From Bryobacterales bacterium (GTDB lineage: Bacteria > Acidobacteriota > Terriglobia > Bryobacterales > Bryobacteraceae), in contig JANXXL010000276.1 in NCBI GenBank assembly GCA_025350625.1, forward strand, positions 1-39,159: 39,159 nt of DNA. Reading direction: 5' to 3'. The position numbers were made by a program, and so were the translations under genes. This document shows, one piece after another, positions 14,094-18,457 of this stretch (positions are counted from its first letter, which is position 1; each line of letters opens with the position of its first letter). The notes under the pieces were generated by a model. It was given only the letters and a program-made list of their open reading frames with translations, made no database searches and was not told where the DNA came from.

Positions 14094-15353
14094 ATGGATT
14101 CCAATCGATCTGGCCGGAGACGGTTCCTGAAAAGTGCCGCGTTGGCCGGCTTGGCCGCGGGCGCGGAGCAATCGGCCAGCGCCCAATCGGCCGTCTCTGA
14201 AGCAGCGCCGAAAGAAACCCATACCCACGGCGAGCCGTCGCGCTTTGCGAAAGATGGGGTACGGGGGGTAAAGCTGAGCCTGAATCACATGACTTACTAC
14301 ACCCCGCTTCAGGATTCTGCAGGAATCATCACGCCGGCGCCGTTCCACTTCATGCAACAACACTCCTCCCGCCTGCCGGATATCGATCCCGCGCAACACC
14401 GCCTTACGGTTCACGGCATGGTAGATCGACCTTTGAGCTTCACCATGGAGGAATTGAAGCGCCTGCCTTCGGTTTCCAGGATTTATTTCGTCGAGTGCCA
14501 TGGAAACGGCTCTCCCATGCGCCATAGCGACAACGATCCGAAGGAAGGGTTGCCGATTCAATATACCCACGGAATGACGAGTTGCAGCGAATGGACCGGG
14601 GTGCCGCTTTCTGTGTTGCTCAAAGAGGCCGGCCTGCAAAAAGAGGCTAGCTGGCTGGTTTACGAGGGGGCGGACGCCGGCAAGTATACATATACTCTTC
14701 CGCTGGCGAAGGCCATGGACGATGTTATGGTCGCCTACGCTCAGAATGGCGAGCCGGTTCGTCCCGAGCAGGGTTACCCGTTGCGGATGTTGGTGCCCGG
14801 CTGGGAAGGGCCCTTCAACGTTAAGTGGCTCAGGCACATTAAAGTGGTGGACCAGCCCTACATGACCTGGAATGAAAGCATGAACCACTCGATTCCTAGA
14901 GCCGATCTGGGCGGTAAATCGCGCTGGTATCACTTTCAGATGGCGGTGAAATCGGTAATTACCAAGCCCTCGGCGGGACTAAAACTGCCCGGCCCAGGTT
15001 TTTACGAGATTACTGGTCTGGCTTGGTCCGGTTTGGGCGCGGTGCGCAAGGTCGAGGTATCCACCGACGGCGGCCGCAGTTGGAAGGATGCGAAACTGCA
15101 AACGCCGGTGCTGCGGATGGCGCACACCCGGTTTAATTTCGACTGGAATTGGGACGGCGAAGAGGCGGTGATTCAGTCACGGTGCACCGACGATCAGGGA
15201 GAGGTTCAACCGTCGCTCGCTGAGCTAAATAAGAATTGGGGTATCAGCGAAGACAGCCATGCGCAAATGAAAAGCCGCGCCATTCATATCAATGCCATTC
15301 AACCGTGGAAGGTGGCCCGCGATGGGAGTGTACACGATGCGATGTTCTCTTAA
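14094..15353 (+). CDS. SoxC-like sulfite dehydrogenase, molybdopterin subunit
   Basis: A 419-residue member of the sulfite oxidase/SoxC family, which oxidises sulfite or protein-bound sulfur at a Mo-molybdopterin centre in the periplasm. The Tat signal SGRRRFLKSAALAGLA opens the protein. The oxidoreductase molybdopterin-binding domain covers about 60-260, with C135 in VECHGNG as the probable Mo ligand and the SCSEWTGVPLSVLL segment near 163-176. A Mo-co dimerisation domain of Ig type follows (about 280-400, VEVSTDGGRSWKDAKL). GGGAGA at 14083-14088 supports the start. The cytochrome c gene overlaps the 3' end by 17 bp, giving a SorAB/SoxCD-like pair. No soxXYZAB genes are visible, so a stand-alone sulfite dehydrogenase is the simplest reading. 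Confidence 0.9.
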   Translation: MDSNRSGRRRFLKSAALAGLAAGAEQSASAQSAVSEAAPKETHTHGEPSRFAKDGVRGVKLSLNHMTYYTPLQDSAGIITPAPFHFMQQHSSRLPDIDPAQHRLTVHGMVDRPLSFTMEELKRLPSVSRIYFVECHGNGSPMRHSDNDPKEGLPIQYTHGMTSCSEWTGVPLSVLLKEAGLQKEASWLVYEGADAGKYTYTLPLAKAMDDVMVAYAQNGEPVRPEQGYPLRMLVPGWEGPFNVKWLRHIKVVDQPYMTWNESMNHSIPRADLGGKSRWYHFQMAVKSVITKPSAGLKLPGPGFYEITGLAWSGLGAVRKVEVSTDGGRSWKDAKLQTPVLRMAHTRFNFDWNWDGEEAVIQSRCTDDQGEVQPSLAELNKNWGISEDSHAQMKSRAIHINAIQPWKVARDGSVHDAMFS

Positions 15354-15909
15354 TATGAGCGCGCCGGTAATAATGCTGGCAGCCGCCGCGATGGGGCTGG
15401 CGCAGTCGCCGACTTTTAAAGTGGGCACGCCTTTGAGCCCGGACGAAATACGCGGCTTCGACATGATGGTGGGCCCGGAGGGAAAAGAACTTCCCCCTGG
15501 GAGTGGCACCGCGAAAGAAGGCGCGGAGATCTTCGCCAAGCAATGCGCTGTGTGCCACGGCAAGAACGGAAGCGGAGGGCCGGCCAATCGTCTAGTGTTG
15601 GGCAGTCCCGGGAACCCGCATCGCGGCCCCTGGAAAGATACTGAAAAGTCCGCCACCAGCTATTACCCGTATCCCACCATTGCGTGGGATTATATCCAGC
15701 GCGCTATGCCTGCCACTAAACCGGGATCGCTAACCCCGACTGAAGTTTACTCGCTGGTTGCGTTTCTGTTTTACCAGAATGGCATCATCCAGGAGACCGA
15801 CGTCATGGACGCCAAGAGTTTGCCGAAGGTACAGATGCCCAATCGCGATGGCTTCGTGCCCGGAAAACCGGTCTGGCCTCCAGTTCCTAAAAAACCCAGC
15901 TGGTACTGA
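15337..15909 (+). CDS. Class I cytochrome c, electron acceptor of the SoxC-like enzyme
   Basis: A 190-residue periplasmic monohaem cytochrome. The N-terminus has a signal peptide (about 1-23, VIMLAAAAMGLAQS). The haem site CAVCH is at residues 70-74, and M124 in RAMPATKPG is the likely sixth ligand. The C-terminus is Pro/Trp-rich. The start at 15337 is chosen over upstream ATGs because GGGAG at 15324-15328 is correctly spaced and the signal peptide then begins at residue 1. It overlaps the end of the Mo subunit gene by 17 bp, indicating coupled translation and a physical or electron-transfer partnership. Confidence 0.9.
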   Translation: MRCSLNMSAPVIMLAAAAMGLAQSPTFKVGTPLSPDEIRGFDMMVGPEGKELPPGSGTAKEGAEIFAKQCAVCHGKNGSGGPANRLVLGSPGNPHRGPWKDTEKSATSYYPYPTIAWDYIQRAMPATKPGSLTPTEVYSLVAFLFYQNGIIQETDVMDAKSLPKVQMPNRDGFVPGKPVWPPVPKKPSWY

Positions 15910-16161
15910 TGGGTGTGACACAGCCGGCGGCAGATACTGGTCACCAGGGAACCGCTCACCCGTGACGTTCTTACTGTGGCATATGTCTTAGTTTTGCGCC
16001 TGCATAGCCCTGCAAGCGTTTAGACAACTTTTCGCATCATTTCCGGATTCCTGGAGGTTCCAATCCTGCATGAGGGTGATAACCTTATGCCTACCAACAG
16101 AATGGCAAAGGAACATCGCGTGCAGTATAAGTCGCAGTTCAGATTGGAATTGGAGGAAGCC

Positions 16162-16392
16162 ATGAGAAAACTTTTGCTTAGCGCACTGCTATTAGGGGCA
16201 ATGAGCTCCGTCACGTACGCTAAAAACGAACACGACGAAAATAAAAACGACAACAAAAGCGACGAATCGCGCGACGAGAACAAAAACAGGAACGACCGAA
16301 GCGTGCCGGAGATTGACCCGAACTCGGCCATTTCCGCTGTATTTCTGCTGGCAAGCGGAGTCCTTATGATTAGGGGCCGCCGCAAGCAATAA
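16162..16392 (+). CDS. VPEID-CTERM sorting-signal peptide (probable exosortase E substrate)
   Basis: A 76-residue exported precursor. GGAGG at 16152-16156 fixes the start at 16162; a longer frame from 16087 lacks a ribosome binding site and would hide the signal peptide. Residues 1-20 are a signal peptide ending SSVTYA. Residues 21-47 consist only of polar or charged residues (N, D, E, K, R, S, H). VPEID at 48-52 starts a C-terminal sorting domain with a hydrophobic helix (SAISAVFLLASGVLMI) and the basic tail RGRRKQ. This tripartite signal matches the VPEID variant of PEP-CTERM signals, known to pair with exosortase E. The xrtE gene begins 22 bp downstream, probably in one operon. After processing only about 27-30 residues would remain. 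Confidence 0.88.
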   Translation: MRKLLLSALLLGAMSSVTYAKNEHDENKNDNKSDESRDENKNRNDRSVPEIDPNSAISAVFLLASGVLMIRGRRKQ

Positions 16393-16414
16393 TCGCGTCC
16401 AGTGGGCCTAATTA

Positions 16415-18124
16415 ATGGGGGTGCGCATTGCGAAAATTAGCCCTACATCATCGGCCGTAAGTCTCATCCAGCCAGCTGTTCAGTTCTCAATACCTATAGC
16501 CCCGCGCAACGCCTGGCTGCCGCGGCGGTTGATTGCTCTCGCCCTCCTGTTCGTAGCCGAAATCGTCGTACTGTCAATCCTGTTCGACACGAAGGATCTG
16601 ATAGGAACAACAGTTCTCACCCGCTTTCTCAGCGATCAATTTCCGGCGCTGCTGCAGATTGGGCTGGCGGCGGCCACCGTGTACACTATCCTGATCTTCT
16701 TCACTGCGCGGAATCTTGTCTCTGAAATTTCCACCAAGTATAGAGACACCCCCATCTCGTGGCCAATGTTGGGTGGACATCTGGGAGCGGTCCTTGGGTT
16801 TCTATTCCTCTCGCGAAGGCTGTTCAGCGGTGCGGCGCTTTCTACGAGGCCGGATTTAATGGCTGCCACGTGGATACTGACTGGTGCGTGCCTGGCCTGC
16901 CTTGCGGCGATCGCGCTGGTGCCGGTGAAAGCGTGGCTCGCCCTCCTCTATGGGAGCAGCGGGATCACAGCTGCCGCCATCGCCGCCGGCATTTTCGCCT
17001 CGTTTGGGATGGACCTGGCACGGATTTTTTGGCTGCCGCTTTCCGGCTTAACATTCTCTGCGGTGAAGTTGCTTCTAGCGCCTTTCATTCCAGTTCTCGT
17101 CTCTGACCGAAGCTCTCTGCTTATTGGAAGCTCGCGCTTTTCCGTGGTCATAAGCCCGGGATGTTCGGGAGTGGAAGGTGCGATGCTTATGCTGGTCGTG
17201 ACCGTCGCTTGGCTGTGGCTTTTCCGGAAGGAATGCAAGTTTCCACAAGCGCTGCTCATTATCCCCGCCGGCGTCTGCCTGATTTTGCTCTTAAACTGTG
17301 TCCGAATCGCCGCATTGGTGCTGATAGGACACGCGGGCGCACCCCAGATCGCCTTGGGAGGATTTCACTCGCAAGCCGGCTGGATCGCCTTCAATGCCGT
17401 TGCCCTGGGCCTGGCTCTGCCTTTGCGAAGGTGGAGTTTTTTGACCAACGCTGGGCCGCTCGAATCGCCTGGCAGCACAAGTACACCGGCCAATCCCTCC
17501 GTCTGGTATCTCGCTCCATTCGCGTCGATTTTGGTTGCCGGTATGGTATCGAGCGCATCGTCTGCAGGATTTGAGTGGCTGTATCCTCTGCGTTTCTTGG
17601 TTGCGGCCGGAACTCTTTTCTACTTTCGAAGAATGTATCGAGACCTGGACTGGCGAGTGGGATGGGTTGGACCGTTCGCGGGTGTCGCCGTCTTCTTAAT
17701 ATGGATGGGACTGGCTAAGTGGTCAGCGTCCCCGGCCGACAGTGCCACCGAACGGGCTCTGTCATCCATGCCTTTTGCAGCCAGCTTCGCGTGGGTAACT
17801 TTCCGCCTGTTGGCGGCCACGATTACTGTTCCAATCGCCGAAGAACTGGCATTTCGGGGGTTCCTACTTCGCCGCCTGGTTTCGGAAAAGTTCGAAACCG
17901 TCGCCAGGCAAAGCTTCGGGTTGATGCCGATCGTGGTCTCTTCGGTGGCCTTCGGACTCATGCATGGAAACCGATGGCTTGCCGGTACACTGGCCGGCGT
18001 CGTTTATGCGCTCGCCTACCGGACACGGGGAAGGATCGGGGACGCGGTTGCTGCCCATGCGCTAACGAACCTCCTTCTGGCGGCGACGATGCTGCAAAGC
18101 GGAACATGGCGAACCTCCTGGTGA
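16415..18124 (+). CDS. xrtE: Exosortase E / CPBP-type protease fusion (XrtE, VPEID-CTERM system)
   Basis: A 569-residue multi-spanning membrane protein fusing two enzymes. The N-terminal exosortase domain has the Cys-Arg-His triad: C250 in SPGCSGVEG, R297 in LNCVRIAAL and H318 in GGFHSQAGW. It would cleave and transfer proteins carrying the VPEID signal. The C-terminal part (about 450-569) is a CPBP (CAAX-protease/bacteriocin-processing, Abi) domain with E476-E477 and R481 in EELAFRG, H517 in GLMHGNRW and H548/N552 in AAHALTN. This fusion is diagnostic of exosortase E. The ribosome binding site is weak, so the exact start is uncertain, and coupling to the upstream VPEID peptide gene is likely. 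Confidence 0.92.
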   Translation: MGVRIAKISPTSSAVSLIQPAVQFSIPIAPRNAWLPRRLIALALLFVAEIVVLSILFDTKDLIGTTVLTRFLSDQFPALLQIGLAAATVYTILIFFTARNLVSEISTKYRDTPISWPMLGGHLGAVLGFLFLSRRLFSGAALSTRPDLMAATWILTGACLACLAAIALVPVKAWLALLYGSSGITAAAIAAGIFASFGMDLARIFWLPLSGLTFSAVKLLLAPFIPVLVSDRSSLLIGSSRFSVVISPGCSGVEGAMLMLVVTVAWLWLFRKECKFPQALLIIPAGVCLILLLNCVRIAALVLIGHAGAPQIALGGFHSQAGWIAFNAVALGLALPLRRWSFLTNAGPLESPGSTSTPANPSVWYLAPFASILVAGMVSSASSAGFEWLYPLRFLVAAGTLFYFRRMYRDLDWRVGWVGPFAGVAVFLIWMGLAKWSASPADSATERALSSMPFAASFAWVTFRLLAATITVPIAEELAFRGFLLRRLVSEKFETVARQSFGLMPIVVSSVAFGLMHGNRWLAGTLAGVVYALAYRTRGRIGDAVAAHALTNLLLAATMLQSGTWRTSW

Positions 18125-18271: not shown

Positions 18272-18457
18272 ATGAGTAGACAGTGTCCCCAATGCCGAAA
18301 GATCGTGGATTTTAAAGCGCCTTCATGCGATGGTTGCCGGCTGAGCTTCTTTAGCACACCAGCAAAGCGGAAAGACTTCACCGGCATCTGTGTGAGAATT
18401 GCGGGGGCTGCCTTCGTCGCCACCGCTCTTATCGTGGCGATAGTGTCGAGCCATTAG
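18272..18457 (+). CDS. Small zinc-ribbon membrane protein
   Basis: A 61-residue protein with a rubredoxin-like zinc-ribbon at the N-terminus (CPQC at 5-8 and CDGC at 19-22) and one C-terminal membrane helix (about 40-58, IAGAAFVATALIVAIVSS). GGAGG about 10 bases before the ATG supports translation. I do not recognise a specific family. It follows xrtE on the same strand with a 147-bp gap holding a small hairpin (18163-18176) and an 8-bp direct repeat (AGTACTGC at 18153 and 18205), so it is probably transcribed separately. Confidence 0.65.
   Translation: MSRQCPQCRKIVDFKAPSCDGCRLSFFSTPAKRKDFTGICVRIAGAAFVATALIVAIVSSH

Follow-up and report, generated by a model that had tools for sequence, protein, structure and literature searches.

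An exosortase E/VPEID-CTERM locus in a Bryobacterales bacterium and its relatives, in which the sorting tag seems to carry almost no protein

The window, a stretch of 39,159 nucleotides from a soil bacterium of the Bryobacterales, Acidobacteriota (GenBank assembly GCA_025350625.1, contig JANXXL010000276.1), contains a two-gene locus in which the gene of a micro-protein with a VPEID-CTERM sorting tag precedes xrtE, the gene of an exosortase E fused to a CAAX-type (CPBP) protease. That this locus is an XrtE/VPEID-CTERM system of the known kind is near certain. It is an ordinary member of its family, and the interest lies in the family-wide pattern: judged from the sequences of relatives, nearly all VPEID tags seem to be attached to almost no protein, and the two genes seem to serve the production or anchoring of a micro-peptide.

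The XrtE/VPEID-CTERM pair

The elements of the locus are the following.

16152..16156, + strand: Shine–Dalgarno sequence GGAGG, read from the sequence, 5 nt upstream of the ATG at 16162
16162..16392, + strand: VPEID-CTERM micro-protein precursor, 76 aa, the own-genome match to the tail profile (7.5e-15)
16162..16221, + strand: Sec signal peptide, residues 1-20, with signal peptidase I (SPase I) site TYA/K (A20 conservation, A.A motif enrichment)
16222..16302, + strand: all-polar spacer or cargo, 27 residues, missing in nearly all acidobacterial relatives
16303..16317, + strand: VPEID motif, read from the sequence, GTGCCGGAGATTGAC
16318..16389, + strand: transmembrane helix of the sorting signal and basic tail RGRRKQ (alignments; predicted helix 53-74)
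16415..18124, + strand: xrtE, exosortase E/CPBP protease fusion, 569 aa (TIGR04162, 207.7 bits; AlphaFold2 model)
16856..17434, + strand: exosortase domain, about residues 148-340 (C250, R297, H318; PF09721, TIGR04178)
17792..18076, + strand: CPBP, or Rce1-like glutamic intramembrane protease, domain, residues 460-554 (E476, E477, R481, H517, H548, N552; PF02517, 7.6e-17)

The 76-aa precursor is laid out as MRKLLLSALLLGAMSSVTYA / KNEHDENKNDNKSDESRDENKNRNDRS / VPEIDPNSAISAVFLLASGVLMIRGRRKQ, with a signal peptide up to A20, 27 polar residues, VPEID, a helix and a basic tail. A protein with a signal peptide is thus closed by a tripartite signal consisting of VPEID, a hydrophobic helix and a basic tail. 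The spacer is composed of K, N, E, H, D, S and R only and includes a weak 12-bp tandem repeat (16235-16263). Two helices are predicted, and both termini are basic and predicted to be cytoplasmic. An alternative start at ATG 16087 (101 aa) was rejected, as it would bury the signal peptide and ignores the GGAGG ahead of 16162. The curated VPEID-CTERM model TIGR04161 (31 positions, cut-off 33 bits) matches neither the window protein at E<=1 nor its tail at E<=10; at E<=1 it matches 60 of the 73 aligned relatives, with 2.9e-8 as the best value. A search against Rfam gave a sub-threshold chance match only.

The stop of the micro-gene (16392) and the ATG of xrtE (16415) are separated by 22 bp. XrtE is matched over its full length by TIGR04162 (207.7 bits, residues 42-565, curated cut-off 150), and additionally by PF02517 (Rce1-like, 7.6e-17) and PF09721. 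The protein combines the exosortase Cys/Arg/His residues with a fused CPBP domain that has EExxxR and the His residues. Among 68 XrtE homologues, C250, R297, H318, E477 and R481 are invariant, and E476 (66/68), H517 (63/68) and H548 (64/68) are near-invariant. An AlphaFold2 model built on 50 homologues is confident, with a pLDDT of 89 and a pTM of 0.80; searching the PDB by sequence and by fold revealed no relative. A preliminary description of this DNA had proposed a two-gene XrtE/VPEID-CTERM pair, a precursor made up of a signal peptide, 27 non-hydrophobic residues and VPEID, and two intact catalytic sets (C250/R297/H318 and E476-E477/R481/H517/H548). The TIGR04162 score, the 22-bp spacing, the conservation among the 68 homologues and, for the limits of the spacer, that of A20 bear this out.

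Cargo of the substrate in the source genome and in relatives

The source genome is a 5.09-Mb draft of 417 contigs that is 89% complete, and the window is its contig 61. Three VPEID motifs are present in this genome, of which the one in the window's micro-protein is the only C-terminal one. The two others lie inside frames of 388 aa and 390 aa and, not being C-terminal, were rejected as sorting signals. A 44-row tail profile likewise gives one significant match (7.5e-15), the window's precursor. As far as the draft shows, XrtE therefore has one dedicated micro-substrate. The same genome contains four PEP-CTERM proteins that exceed the curated cut-off, encoded in frames of 206-349 aa, and one weaker match. 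Two additional exosortase-family genes were seen as well (G000:C38:3788-4063 and G000:C30:26399-26662).

The 79 distinct acidobacterial precursors measure 52 aa in the median, and xPE is preceded by 24 residues (median; 21-28 in most copies), enough for a signal peptide and a few more residues. In a hold-out set of 39 further proteins, 38 have 18-28 residues before xPE and one has 41. Clear long exceptions are the window's precursor (47 residues before xPE), that of L017 (65, Pro-rich) and that of L214 (41, KDKGHHWGKDKDPRGHVTGHV). Spacers of 18-74 residues are found in the gammaproteobacterial branch, and polar or His-rich inserts recur in this clade and in L214, on other branches of XrtE. In the XrtE tree, gammaproteobacterial xrtE is nested inside acidobacterial xrtE with full support, which suggests inter-phylum transfer or mis-binned contigs, as the records are metagenome-assembled genomes. 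VPEID proteins of Rhodobacterales, either annotated or adjacent to xrtE, measure 57-88 aa as well, so that a small size per se is typical of the family. One case of a larger cargo was found, on a Novosphingobium plasmid (L083, 5063-5677), where an APEID tail ends a frame of 205 aa and the adjacent xrtE is very divergent. The long frames of a few other micro-protein matches (up to 432 aa) are stop-to-stop read-through 5′ of the start and were rejected as cargo.

That the substrate is tiny and not a surface protein, as had been proposed, agrees with about 118 acidobacterial relatives, all of which are tiny. Long VPEID proteins elsewhere in the source genome, or relatives resembling a bigger version of the micro-protein, would have spoken otherwise; the genome has a single VPEID-CTERM protein, and no such relative was seen. 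The preliminary description further suggested that the cargo is a short hydrophilic peptide, which the CPBP domain may process or release in secreted form. Of the 118 or so acidobacterial relatives, about 115 lack any cargo apart from some 2-11 residues, and the spacer is not conserved. The stretch of 27 polar residues is an uncommon addition that relatives do not keep, so a secreted 27-mer is not supported as the product that the family has conserved. What holds of that description is the XrtE/VPEID pair with its tiny substrate, but not, on this evidence, the emphasis on the hydrophilic 27-mer.

Co-occurrence with XrtE and constraint on the precursor

One genome scan yielded 37 xrtE loci, mostly from Bryobacterales and Gammaproteobacteria. 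At nearly every complete XrtE locus, whether from Acidobacteriota, Gammaproteobacteria or Rhodobacterales, a small VPEID-type gene adjoins xrtE, mostly upstream and on the same strand. In a sample of 150 genomes of the same family, 28 contain xrtE above the cut-off. All of these 28 have tail-profile matches (E<1e-6), versus 5 of the 122 others (Fisher 1.3e-25), and all matches in the sample lie within small genes. Because adjacency is near-universal at complete loci and presence is almost perfectly correlated across the 150 genomes, the pairing of micro-protein and xrtE is non-random. One of the five XrtE-negative genomes with a micro-protein, G023, has a split xrtE. The number of micro-protein copies reaches 8 per genome, and many copies are located far from xrtE. 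Tandem arrays of 4-5 cargo-less micro-protein genes occur at L013 (4841-5842), L123 (3116-3843) and L205.

In most close pairs of micro-genes, dN/dS is well below 1 (e.g., 0.036/0.36 and 0.12/0.36), the L009/L032 pairs being too close for such a reading; the related micro-ORFs are mostly under purifying selection. The CTERM is the most conserved part: close relatives have almost the same one but differ in the signal peptide, and the conserved sorting signal reads PEID-helix-RxRRK. At the other end, A20, at position -1 of the signal-peptidase site, reaches a conservation of 90% or more among 73 aligned relatives. This alignment fixes the site of the window's precursor, so the 27-residue spacer is correctly delimited. 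Starts and signal peptides were otherwise called with a home-made heuristic instead of SignalP, and some sites are misplaced. Of 70 sequences, 80% have the A.A pattern of signal peptidase, versus 49% in composition-preserving shuffles (z 6.8); looser patterns show no enrichment, owing to the many small residues of this region. N-terminal cleavage has probably been retained although nearly nothing follows it, and since the site is kept despite almost no exported residues, N-terminal processing seems to matter.

A fatty-acid-hydroxylase-family gene beside the micro-genes

The neighbourhood of xrtE is not conserved. Among 94 neighbours from Acidobacteriota and Gammaproteobacteria, 123 Pfam families with at most three members each were recorded, with PF04116 as the sole exception, and no conserved extracellular polysaccharide (EPS) cluster, receptor gene or exporter gene was found. 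The PF04116 gene, of the fatty-acid-hydroxylase family, adjoins a micro-protein gene or xrtE, in most cases tail-to-tail and at a distance of about 70 bp or less. Of about 105 PF04116 genes in the 150-genome set, 9 are within about 1 kb of a micro-protein gene or xrtE, versus 0.02 expected. A hydroxylase profile was seeded with the loci of this set and new genomes were examined as a test, which gave 11 further non-seed loci with the same PF04116 subfamily adjacent, mostly where micro-proteins are far from xrtE. The PF04116 gene at L133 is of a different subtype (28% identity) and was excluded from the profile. Altogether, the adjacency is present at about 20 loci of relatives, mostly in convergent orientation and often without a nearby xrtE. 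VPEID-type micro-genes have a PF04116 neighbour at L016, L019, L056, L072, L114, L123, L126, L132, L188, L191, L195, L197, L199, L202, L203, L206, L210, L212 and L217. The 9 cases against 0.02 expected, together with the 11 non-seed loci, point to a lipid.

Proposed mechanism and alternative explanations

The explanation that we favour, while giving it slightly less than an even chance, is that XrtE turns the micro-precursors into C-terminally processed micro-peptides that are released or, probably, lipid-linked. The precursor would be exported by Sec and cut after A20; the short peptide that remains would be anchored in the membrane through its VPEID-CTERM helix, the tail lying inside. XrtE would then cleave at or near VPEID by means of C250/R297/H318 and join the C-terminus so formed to an acceptor, for which a lipid with an amine group is the likeliest candidate. 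Sortase makes a transfer of this kind, and archaeosortase ArtA is believed to do so. With E476/E477/H517/H548, the fused CPBP domain may perform a second cut or clear the left-over helix. The end product would be a lipid-linked or released micro-peptide, with 27 polar residues in the window and only a few in most relatives. The lipid part would, in many relatives though not at the window's locus, be modified by the enzyme of the fatty-acid-hydroxylase family whose gene adjoins that of the tag. A further step, which we regard as rather unlikely, would be a ribosomal lipopeptide pathway, in which XrtE lipid-caps near-cargo-free precursors and the adjacent hydroxylase-family enzyme tailors the lipid; a sorting tag would then build a small lipidated molecule instead of sorting a protein. 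As to what exosortases join to their substrates, the hydroxylase neighbour is a concrete clue to the acceptor, namely a lipid. With a dedicated enzyme, one substrate of 50-76 aa, conserved processing sites and almost no cargo, this is about the simplest exosortase system that could be assayed.

Several points weigh against the processing of micro-precursors by XrtE as outlined here. The cleavage site of XrtE, the acceptor and the role of the CPBP domain are all inferred from sequence. A peptide of 2-8 residues is hard to regard as functional and may therefore be a by-product. Micro-protein genes without a detected full xrtE are found in G024 (L093/L135), G049 (L132), G058 (L111/L137) and G097 (L116/L136), all of which are drafts; G024 is 99% complete. 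Most xrtE-adjacent loci do not have the hydroxylase, which is also missing from the window's locus, and the source genome contains only a distant PF04116, on contig C99.

The micro-protein could alternatively be a partner of XrtE, i.e., a two-helix hairpin that fills the substrate site and gates the protease as a cofactor, chaperone or regulator. Such a role would fit the coupling of the micro-genes to xrtE, the two predicted helices with basic, predicted cytoplasmic termini, the lack of cargo in nearly all acidobacterial copies and their very tight length (mostly 21-28 residues before xPE). However, the SPase I site is specifically conserved, and the probable retention of N-terminal cleavage favours a processed peptide over a pure hairpin partner. 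Moreover, there are up to 8 copies per genome, many of them distant from xrtE beside the hydroxylase, and a cargo of 18-74 aa is tolerated in Gammaproteobacteria, as is the APEID tail on the 205-aa Novosphingobium frame. We consider a hairpin partner improbable. Ordinary exosortase surface sorting, with a short polar and perhaps glycosylated peptide displayed in the EPS layer, is likewise doubtful: some Rhodobacterales xrtE loci do sit among polysaccharide genes, and polar or His-rich inserts are recurrent in L214 and Gammaproteobacteria, but most relatives have nothing to show, the 94 neighbours include no conserved EPS cluster, and the neighbours in the window are sulfite dehydrogenase and cytochrome c genes. 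Lastly, the functional product might be the C-terminal helix fragment freed by XrtE/CPBP cleavage, e.g., as a hydrophobic signal or a membrane-active peptide. The helix and basic tail are indeed most conserved, in contrast to a spacer that may change or be lost, and the sorting enzyme carries a fused intramembrane protease. A recognition signal of the enzyme would show equal conservation, however, and no conserved receptor or exporter gene lies nearby. We regard a functional helix fragment as very unlikely.

Comparison with known sorting systems

XrtE/VPEID is already annotated, with RefSeq xrtE in Rhodobacterales plasmids. The window's locus resembles this TIGR04162 plus TIGR04161 system in having a full-length fused enzyme and an adjacent small VPEID-tailed protein, but its tail is not recognized by TIGR04161. 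In contrast to the Rhodobacterales system, the acidobacterial substrates are mostly cargo-free, number up to 8 per genome and often lie beside PF04116, without an EPS cluster. The open-access papers searched contain no text on VPEID substrates or VPEID-CTERM, nothing on exosortases together with fatty acid hydroxylases and no report of PF04116 adjacent to these micro-proteins.

ArtA, which acts on PGF-CTERM proteins in Haloferax, is a related Cys/Arg/His membrane enzyme with a tripartite C-terminal signal and a link to lipid-synthesis genes; maturation by ArtA requires the lipid enzymes PssA/PssD, a link first seen by synteny (PMC7157517). In contrast to XrtE, ArtA sorts large surface glycoproteins, a fused CPBP domain is missing from its model, and PssA/PssD take the place of a hydroxylase among the linked lipid genes. 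The MYXO-CTERM signal is cleaved by the CPBP enzyme MrtX, and both the myxosortase MrtX and MrtJ, which pairs with JDVT-CTERM, are CPBP-family sorting enzymes; MrtJ/JDVT is also a two-gene system of an enzyme and a single target (PMC11980579). Unlike XrtE, these enzymes consist of CPBP alone without an exosortase domain, and MrtX acts on surface proteins whose tag contains an invariant Cys. The classical PEP-CTERM/EpsH system follows the same sorting logic, although in the source genome the PEP-CTERM matches above the cut-off are found in frames of 206-349 aa, whereas XrtE has one micro-substrate. Fusions of an EpsH-like domain to a CAAX-protease domain were already noted in 2006 (PMC1569441).

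Neighbouring genes in the window

Directly 3′ of xrtE, at 18272-18457, lies an ORF of 61 aa whose N-terminus resembles a zinc ribbon and which contains a single hydrophobic segment; it has no family match above cut-off. Elsewhere in the window, a SoxC-type sulfite dehydrogenase gene (TIGR04555; 14094-15353) adjoins a cytochrome c gene (15292-15909).
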